64,000 nucleotides of DNA, taken from assembly GCA_946183785.1 (NCBI GenBank), contig CAMHCS010000004.1:1-64000 (forward strand), in the 5' to 3' direction. Positions within the stretch are counted from its first letter, which is position 1. Each line of letters begins with the position of its first letter. The notes under the pieces were generated by a model that saw only the letters and a program-made list of their open reading frames with translations, ran no database searches and had not been told where the DNA came from. Shown here piece by piece: positions 46,438-48,549 of this stretch. Source of the DNA: an uncultured Selenomonadales bacterium. Lineage in GTDB: Bacteria > Bacillota > Negativicutes > Selenomonadales > Selenomonadaceae. The position numbers were made by a program, and so were the translations under genes.

Positions 46438-48057
46438 TTGATACAGACTTATACAATAACCGCGCCGGAATACGGTAAGGTCGTGGACTGGCTGGAGGAA
46501 ATCCTGCCCGGGATGAAGGTGACGCGTCGGGAGATTTTAGTGGCGGAGCTTCTTCTGGAAGAAAACTTCTATCGCCTGGCCGAGGCGTCGGGGGACGCGT
46601 CCTCTTTTTCCGCCCGGCTCGACGTCCGGAAGCGTTTCGGCGACGTCGACCTCCGGCTCTCGGCGCATGGAGAACCGTTCAATCCCCTCGAAGAATTGAA
46701 CGAGGCGACGGAGGACACGGCGGAGCTTTACAGCCTTGCCATCCTGAAAGCCCATCGGGACAAGATCAGCCATTCGTGGAAAAAGGGCGAGAACGTCATT
46801 TCCATGCGTATCCACCGTTCCGACAGCAAGACTGCCGTCCATACGCTGATCGCCCTCGTTCTGGGCGTCGTCTTGGGGGTCGCCATGAAAGCGGGGCTCG
46901 GCGCCGAAACGATCCGCTGGGTGGGCGACAATCTTTTCCTGCCCGTCGAGACGATCTTCATGAACGCGCTCCTGATGGTGGCTGCGCCGTTGATTTTTTT
47001 CTCGGTGACGGCGGGTATCACCGGTATGTCTGACACGGCGGACATCGGGCGCATGGGGGGGAAGCTCCTCATGATCTCCCTGGCGAAGCTGGCAATCATG
47101 CTGGGACTCGCCGTTTTTCTCGGAATTCGGATGGGCGCCATGCCGGAGCTGTTGGCTATGGATACGGTGAACGTTGCTTCCGGGGGCGCAACCGTTTCCG
47201 TCCGGGACGTGATCATGAGCATCGTGCCGAAGAATATCATCGCGCCCTTTGAAGGAAACAACCTTTTGCAGGTGCTGTTCCTCGCCCTGTTCTTCGGCAT
47301 GCTTTTGGCGAAAGCGGCGGAACGGGCGGCCTGGGTGCGGGACTTCGTCAGCTTTTGCAACCGCTTCTTTACTGACGCCATGGGCACGATCCTGCCGCTG
47401 ATGCCTGTCGTGGTGGCTGTCTCCATGGCAAAACTGATGATGAATACCGAGCTTACCGTGCTGCTCCTCTATGGGCGCATCATCGGGGGCGCCTTTGTGG
47501 AGCTCCTGCTGGTGCTCACCGTTTGCGCCGTGTTCGTGACGGTCGTCGGGCGGTTGTCGCCGGCGCCGTTCCTCAGGAAATTCCTGACCTTCAGCATCCT
47601 GCCCTTTTCCCTGCGCAGCTCCAACGGCTGTCTGCCGGACACGTTGAACTTCTGCTCGAAAAAGCTCGGCATGGAGAAAAAAGTCGCGATGTTTTCCGTT
47701 CCTGTAGGCATCCAGTTCAATATGATGGGCAGCGGGAGCTACGTCGTCATGTTGGCGATCCTCCTTCGGCTGACGGTCGGCCTGACCGTGGACGCGGAGT
47801 TCCTGGTCTCGTTCTTTTTCGCCGTGCTGCTTTTGGCATTCACCTTCCCCAGTGTACCGGGCGCGACAATCCTCGTCATGGCCTCCGTCTTCGGCATGGC
47901 CGGGGTTCCCGCGTCGGCGGTCACGCTCTTCATCGGCATCGATCCGCTGGTGGACGGGTTCCGGACCGTGGGCAACGTAGCCGGGAACACTGTCTCTTCA
48001 TTACTGCTGGCGAGGACGGAGGGAAAAGTGGACGAAGAGATATACGGAGCGGATTGA
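46438..48057 (+). CDS. RsbW-like ATPase domain fused to DAACS dicarboxylate symporter
   Basis: A 539-residue protein in two parts. Residues 1-130 resemble an anti-sigma/HATPase domain: VAELLLEENFYRLAEASG at the N-box, DLRLSAHGEPFNPLEE at the G1 position, and KISHSWKKGENVISMRI at the last strand. Residues 132-535 form a multi-helix DAACS transporter with LPFSLRSSNGCLPDTLNF (HP1 serine loop), NMMGSG (normally NMDGT) and DPLVDGFRTVGNVAGN (normally DxxxDMxRTxxNVxGD). The family's two Na+-site aspartates thus appear as Met and Asn. The start is TTG 46438 with CGGAG 8 bases upstream. Substrate unknown. Confidence 0.8.
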   Translation: MIQTYTITAPEYGKVVDWLEEILPGMKVTRREILVAELLLEENFYRLAEASGDASSFSARLDVRKRFGDVDLRLSAHGEPFNPLEELNEATEDTAELYSLAILKAHRDKISHSWKKGENVISMRIHRSDSKTAVHTLIALVLGVVLGVAMKAGLGAETIRWVGDNLFLPVETIFMNALLMVAAPLIFFSVTAGITGMSDTADIGRMGGKLLMISLAKLAIMLGLAVFLGIRMGAMPELLAMDTVNVASGGATVSVRDVIMSIVPKNIIAPFEGNNLLQVLFLALFFGMLLAKAAERAAWVRDFVSFCNRFFTDAMGTILPLMPVVVAVSMAKLMMNTELTVLLLYGRIIGGAFVELLLVLTVCAVFVTVVGRLSPAPFLRKFLTFSILPFSLRSSNGCLPDTLNFCSKKLGMEKKVAMFSVPVGIQFNMMGSGSYVVMLAILLRLTVGLTVDAEFLVSFFFAVLLLAFTFPSVPGATILVMASVFGMAGVPASAVTLFIGIDPLVDGFRTVGNVAGNTVSSLLLARTEGKVDEEIYGAD

Positions 48058-48063
48058 AAATAG

Positions 48064-48549
48064 ATAGATCGCCCGGACCGGGGCTATGATTTCGTGTTCC
48101 CGGATCGGGATTTCATCCGCCGTGCGGTACACCTCTTCGCGCCGGAGGACCCGGAGGAGCTGGCGAAATACTACGACTACCGACGCATCGGCCCGTCCTA
48201 TGAGAAGCTGTACCGTCTTTCCGAGGACTGGCGGAACATACCGCAGATGCTCTTCATGAAAGACTGCGGCGATAAGATCAAGATCCTCGACACGCGGCTG
48301 ATCGCCCAATCCCCGCTAAACCATATCAAAGGGGCGGAGGCGGACGTGCTGCGCGCCTGCCGCAGCACGATGAAAGAGAGCGCGGTCTGTCGGCAACTTT
48401 CGGACCGCTACCCGCCGAAGGAAATCCGGGAGGCGTTGGAGCAGATGGAGAAAGAAAACCTGTTGCTCCATATCGGGGAAGCGTATCTGACGCTGCCCGT
48501 GGATCGGGTGGGGAGCAAAGGAAATAGGAAGGACAGAGCAGATTCCTGA
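48064..48549 (+). pseudogene. C-terminal remnant of a RiPP maturation radical SAM protein
   Basis: The open frame runs from 48064 (after an in-frame TAG) to TGA 48549. It has no good start or Shine-Dalgarno; GTG 48094 is the first start codon. The sequence (YDFVFPDRDFIRRAVHLFAP, ELAKYYDYRRIGPSYEKLYR, KIKILDTRLIAQSPLNHIKG, IREALEQMEKENLLLHIGEA) fits, from memory, the C-terminus of the TIGR03975 group of B12/radical SAM RiPP maturases. The B12-binding and CxxxCxxC parts are missing. It begins 6 bases after the symporter stop, as if a deletion joined the two. A free-standing protein cannot be excluded. Confidence 0.5.

Follow-up and report, generated by a model that had tools for sequence, protein, structure and literature searches.

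The gene at 46438–48057 of the window (the whole 64,000-nucleotide stretch of DNA analyzed, from an uncultured Selenomonadales bacterium of the gut, namely the rumen) joins a domain resembling an anti-sigma factor kinase to a membrane carrier, which raises the question of what such a domain does on a transporter and which ion the carrier would use. The initial annotation had read the product as a transporter with altered ion coupling governed or read out by an ATPase-like sensor, or as a transporter turned receptor.

The fusion gene and its two domains

The fusion gene starts with TTG, and GGAG is found ∼8 nt upstream. Its features are given below; the transporter residues were placed by alignment with AncInt, GltTk, and E. 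coli DctA, GltP, and SstT, and follow GltPh numbering.

46438–48057, + strand: fusion gene, pseudo-HATPase domain and DAACS (SDF) transporter, 539 aa, single open frame
46438–46827, + strand: degenerate RsbW/SpoIIAB-type HATPase domain, residues 1–130 (AlphaFold2, Foldseek, and HMM link to stand-alone HATPase_c_2 proteins)
46573–46575, + strand: R46 where kinases have the N-box Asn (alignment)
46663–46674, + strand: A76-HG-E79, remnant of the G1 box (DxG), Asp replaced by Ala (alignment)
46729–46740, + strand: Y98-S99-L100-A101 at the GGLG lid position, glycines gone (alignment)
46837–48015, + strand: DAACS/SDF transporter domain, Pfam PF00375 (Pfam match; Foldseek to GltPh 6x15, TMt 0.82)
47086–47088, + strand: K217, position 92, a Na+-site Thr/Ser in GltPh (alignment)
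47614–47625, + strand: R393-S394-S395-N396, HP1 positions 276–279, the H+-coupling mark Glu absent at 279 (alignment)
47719–47727, + strand: N428-M429-M430, NMD motif 310–312, Asp312 replaced by Met (alignment)
47941–47976, + strand: D502, D506, R509, T510, and N513, substrate-site positions 390, 394, 397, 398, and 401, kept (alignment)
47986–47988, + strand: N517, position 405, Asn in place of Asp (alignment)

The body of the window protein is an elevator-type DAACS carrier, as first annotated. The Pfam SDF model gave a full-length match to residues 134–526 (E 2e-68), and the full-length structural model (pLDDT 83) matched GltPh/GltTk and AncInt in Foldseek. The substrate-site Asp, Arg, and Asn of TM8 were indeed retained, and the substrate side resembles that of acidic amino acid carriers.

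Direct searches of residues 1–130 against Pfam and NCBIfam matched no model; hence, HMM and fold comparisons were used. The anti-sigma/HATPase fold proposed earlier for the first ∼130 residues was borne out by AlphaFold2 (residues 1–132, pLDDT 93, pTM 0.86, from an alignment of 17 fusion sequences only), and the top Foldseek matches of this model in the PDB were SpoIIAB 1tid (E 1e-5, TM 0.70), RsbW 6m37, and UsfX 8ih8. An HMM built from the N-terminal domains of the fusions alone recovered stand-alone RsbW-like proteins, which Pfam identified as HATPase_c_2 (E 1e-17 to 1e-26). The N-terminal domain of a sister fusion (L046) matched PF13581 with E 8e-5 and 23.1 bits, under the cut-off of 27.4. 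A plasmid search with the domain gave no match.

The ATPase-like sensor envisaged at the outset, if taken to mean a nucleotide-binding one, finds no support in this domain. The N-box Asn, the Asp of the G1 DxG motif, and the GGLG lid are absent from every fusion aligned, whereas they are present in stand-alone kinases, including those within fusion operons. Owing to the loss of all three features, the N-terminal domain of the fusions is predicted to be a catalytically dead RsbW-like pseudo-kinase and not an ATPase. Since these ATP-site features were looked for and found to be gone, the window domain is best classed outside the RsbW kinases. It shares with the SpoIIAB/RsbW anti-sigma kinases (PF13581) the fold of residues 1–130 and, in many relatives, the proximity of STAS and SpoIIE-type genes, but differs from them in being fused to a transporter, in lacking the N-box Asn, DxG, and GGLG, and in that no sigma factor is involved.

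Orthologues with 80–98% identity were found in metagenome-assembled genomes of rumen Selenomonadales/Selenomonadaceae and of Schwartzia. The dN/dS values among them were 0.1–0.3 in both domains, ∼0.2 in the N-terminal domain, showing that purifying selection acts on the N-terminal and transporter domains alike. A pseudogene or an assembly chimera was ruled out by these values, by the orthologues from separate assemblies, and by fusions in single-contig genomes (G588 and G075). The substitutions in the carrier are not chance events, as they are kept in orthologues (NMM/NMV with N405), the dN/dS is low, and the architecture recurs in many genomes, single-contig ones included. The window genome (2.93 Mb, 94 contigs) encodes seven SDF proteins, three of which carry this N-terminal extension.

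In the Schwartzia orthologue from roe deer (L011:5001-6617), R397C and T398A replacements (FCAVGN) were observed along with a higher transporter dN/dS of ∼0.25; its substrate has possibly changed. Downstream of the window gene, a 151-aa ORF (48094–48549, + strand) showed 40% identity to the last 145 residues of a radical-SAM-like protein (638 aa) adjoining the L161 orthologue, and is a stranded piece of a larger gene.

The fusion family and partner-switching genes

A search of ∼1,000 genomes for the same two-domain order showed fusions in many families of Bacillota, and ∼80 sequences were examined. The pseudo-HATPase-DAACS fusion is an old family. In a quick tree with long branches, the fusions formed three broad groups, namely, those with intact Na+ sites, a clade with Lys at position 92 (K92) together with its sisters, and a degenerate group in which R397 and more have been lost. 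Conventional DAACS proteins, including E. coli GltP, DctA, and SstT, formed a separate clade (support 99). The fusion/non-fusion label changed three times on the tree, two of these in rows that look eroded or split, which is consistent with few fusion events.

Several variants were seen within the family. In one fusion clade (L190, L191, L193, and L194), Asn310 is replaced by Lys (KMDG) and Asp405 by Gly, and all four members lie within 3 kb of a STAS gene. In genome G006 (L166:5556-8560), an intact-Na+ fusion gene overlaps the end of a same-strand conventional DAACS gene by 4 nt.

The neighbors of the fusions were often STAS or SpoIIE genes, a link that, like K217, did not figure in the initial annotation. 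An RsbV-like STAS gene and/or a SpoIIE phosphatase gene lies within 3 kb of 33/77 fusions, and 42 of the 48 such neighbors are co-directional, the counts including related genomes and some regions chosen for holding several matches. Within the same 18 genomes, SpoIIE was found within 7 kb of 10/42 fusions as against 1/57 non-fusion DAACS genes (p = 7e-4). A large, strong SpoIIE match was present in all 25 fusion genomes checked and in 7 of the 33 genomes of the family without a fusion, counts that ignore kinship and include some genomes picked by genus. The operon order STAS-kinase-fusion-SpoIIE occurs in L171/L172 and, on the opposite strand, in L122/L123 (domains confirmed with Pfam); an intact kinase is also located near many fusions. 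The STAS proteins of the fusion operons keep the phosphorylatable Ser motif (SSAG), and the linked SpoIIE protein tested as an example has the architecture dCache-HAMP-SpoIIE. Amino-acid ABC ATPases whose C-terminus is a degenerate HATPase_c_2-like domain were also found near some fusions (L118:8760-9920, L119:8858-9976, and L126:6653-9385). In the genus and its relatives, several fusions have in their vicinity small ORFs that look like peptide precursors, with ends similar to Gly-Gly leaders (VAGG/KAAGG; L161:6964-9343, L132:3514-4807, and L133:8669-9049).

Gene linkage in the family suggests that the on/off partner switch may also control transporters directly. In the mechanism proposed, an RsbV-like STAS protein would dock onto the cytoplasmic, dead RsbW-like N-terminus. 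Phosphate would be added to the STAS protein by another RsbW-like kinase, an intact one, and removed by a sensor phosphatase of the SpoIIE type; the unphosphorylated form, seated on the pseudo-kinase, would switch the carrier either on or off. That a STAS-docking pseudo-kinase thus places an acidic-amino-acid-type carrier, no longer using Na+ at sites 1 and 3, under partner switching is the reading we favor, at about an even chance.

The signal could instead run inward, with the carrier-like part sensing an external amino acid and binding or releasing STAS so as to alter other partner-switching outputs, transport being minor or lost. There is a precedent in CbrA, a transporter-kinase transceptor (PMC13022988), and the degenerate relatives argue for it. 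In such fusions at L120, L121, L131, L171, L172, and L126, several of them in tandem, R397, N310, and further site residues are gone from the transporter, and yet it stays full length; these parts are putative pseudo-transporters, many of them linked to STAS/SpoIIE genes. The window protein, however, retains D394, R397, T398, and N401 along with the HP1 serines, and the dCache/HAMP sensor of the linked SpoIIE example already houses the signal input, so that the transporter is the more natural output. The receptor role raised in the initial annotation suits the most degenerate relatives more than it does the window protein, for which it is considered unlikely.

Within the window, no STAS, SpoIIE, or kinase gene accompanies the fusion gene, and none was found near its closest relative (L162); in G006, SpoIIE lies 4.5 kb from the fusion. 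The main intact-Na+ clade likewise has no STAS/SpoIIE neighbors at any of its 13 loci, from which it follows that the N-terminal domain may work without a linked switch. This absence of switch genes, together with the loss of all ATP motifs, favors the view that the domain is a structural or trafficking leftover, making dimer or trimer contacts without a STAS partner on a DAACS carrier whose ion coupling is unusual. The purifying selection on the domain and its retention across families speak against this, as do the linkage of the fusion family to STAS/SpoIIE genes and its presence in the same genomes as these, and it is judged quite improbable. Partner switching could reach the window protein only through switch genes acting in trans, as none lies beside it. 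All the RsbU/V/W parts that adjoin the fusion in many relatives (STAS, SpoIIE, and HATPase kinase) are encoded in the window genome, where seven SpoIIE, five STAS_2, and two HATPase_c_2 kinase genes were found away from the fusion gene; L158:2128-2463, L155:6717-7016, and L157:4757-5059 are examples of its STAS genes.

Ion coupling and the lysine at position 92

Both aspartates thought lost on first annotation are indeed replaced, by M430 at position 312 and N517 at position 405. Altered ion coupling is still likely, but these two replacements are weaker evidence for it than they first seemed. Of 44 non-fusion DAACS rows sampled from related genomes, 35 (∼80%) lack Asp312, nine keep D312, and 41 keep D405; one row of the sample is a wrong ORF (L224) and one an eroded fusion. 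E. coli SstT, which is Na+-coupled, lacks D312, and E. coli GltP and DctA carry N405. The loss of Asp312 was therefore rejected as a remarkable feature. At the Na1/Na3 positions of the GltPh type (Y89, T92, S/T93, D312, and D405), the window protein has S, K, L, M, and N, and so departs from the Na+-coupled set.

The distinctive change of the window clade appears to be an invariant Lys at Na+-site position 92, gained once. It is present in 28/28 members (clade support 97) and none elsewhere, a single change on the tree, its placement following a TM3 alignment that runs without gaps from the GGK motif, where phmmer put a two-residue gap. Some K92 members retain Asp312 or Asp405, and the Lys is therefore not simply a consequence of aspartate loss and does not strictly depend on it. 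K92 also occurs in one nominally non-fusion DAACS protein (L255), upstream of which the DNA looks, by eye, like the eroded end of an N-terminal domain. In a K92 subclade (L122:6232-7839, L123:4139-5746, L170, L192, and L198), five residues are missing in the HP2 gate loop (T-----G) while NMDG is kept.

A Lys occupies the Na+ site in the Na+-independent LeuT-fold carriers BasC, ApcT, and GkApcT (PMC6472337) and in CbrA (PMC13022988); that of the window protein would sit in a fold unrelated to LeuT. By analogy, Lys217 may act as a tethered cation that makes the window carrier Na+-independent, which we give about an even chance. Under the proposed mechanism, the carrier would retain its acidic-amino-acid-type site and abandon Na+ at sites 1 and 3; Lys217 would probably replace the cation, leading to Na+-independent exchange, facilitation, or H+-linked transport.

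H+-coupled DAACS members are marked by a hydrophobic residue at 92, M311L, D405N, and S279E (PMC12668577). A GltP/DctA-like carrier with ordinary H+ coupling and a regulatory domain that binds nucleotide is very improbable here, and the known H+-coupled type was rejected, because D405N is the only mark found (as in E. coli GltP and DctA), while K217 is not hydrophobic, M429 keeps Met311, and N396 places Asn instead of Glu at 279; moreover, the nucleotide-site residues are gone and GltP/DctA branch within conventional DAACS, far from the fusions.

Compared with the DAACS/SLC1 carriers at large (GltPh, GltTk, AncInt, and E. coli GltP, DctA, and SstT), the window protein has the same transporter fold and acidic-substrate residues but differs in bearing a pseudo-kinase at its N-terminus, in the residues at 92 (Lys), 312 (Met), and 405 (Asn), and in the absence of Glu at 279. 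The Na+-uncoupled aspartate carriers of the AncInt group (PMC12668577) are similar in having an acidic amino acid site that, in the window protein too, is likely Na+-independent; however, AncInt retains the Na+-site residues (YTT, NMDG, and D405) that are replaced here.

Partner switching and possible transporter control

Partner switching is known mainly for freeing sigma factors. No description of a HATPase-transporter or partner-switching-transporter system was found in the open-access literature; each part is known, and the combination represents a variation on both partner switching and DAACS. STAS proteins act on transporters in MlaB-MlaF and SLC26/SulP (PMC7367683), and phosphoregulation has been proposed for MlaB. 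In those systems, the transporter contains or binds the STAS part, whereas the window transporter carries the fold of the STAS partner. CbrA (SLC5-STAC-histidine kinase) likewise joins a transporter to a GHKL-related kinase part, with Lys in the Na+ site; it differs in transporter fold and domain order and in having an active histidine kinase (DHp and CA) with two-component output, whereas the window protein lacks DHp and bears a dead HATPase at its N-terminus.

A widespread Bacillota system could exist in which RsbU/RsbV/RsbW controls transporters directly through pseudo-kinase docking domains on DAACS carriers and amino-acid ABC ATPases, and in which the elevator carrier of one clade is Na+-independent through a Lys in its Na+ site; this broader proposal is held tentatively, at somewhat below an even chance. 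The transporter-borne pseudo-kinase and its linkage to STAS/SpoIIE suggest post-translational control of uptake proteins by partner switching, and, with a docking module of similar kind on ABC ATPases, such control of transporters would be general. Given the single gain of Lys92 and the variation of the aspartates within its clade, one-residue swaps would offer a test of how ion coupling evolved in the glutamate-transporter family.
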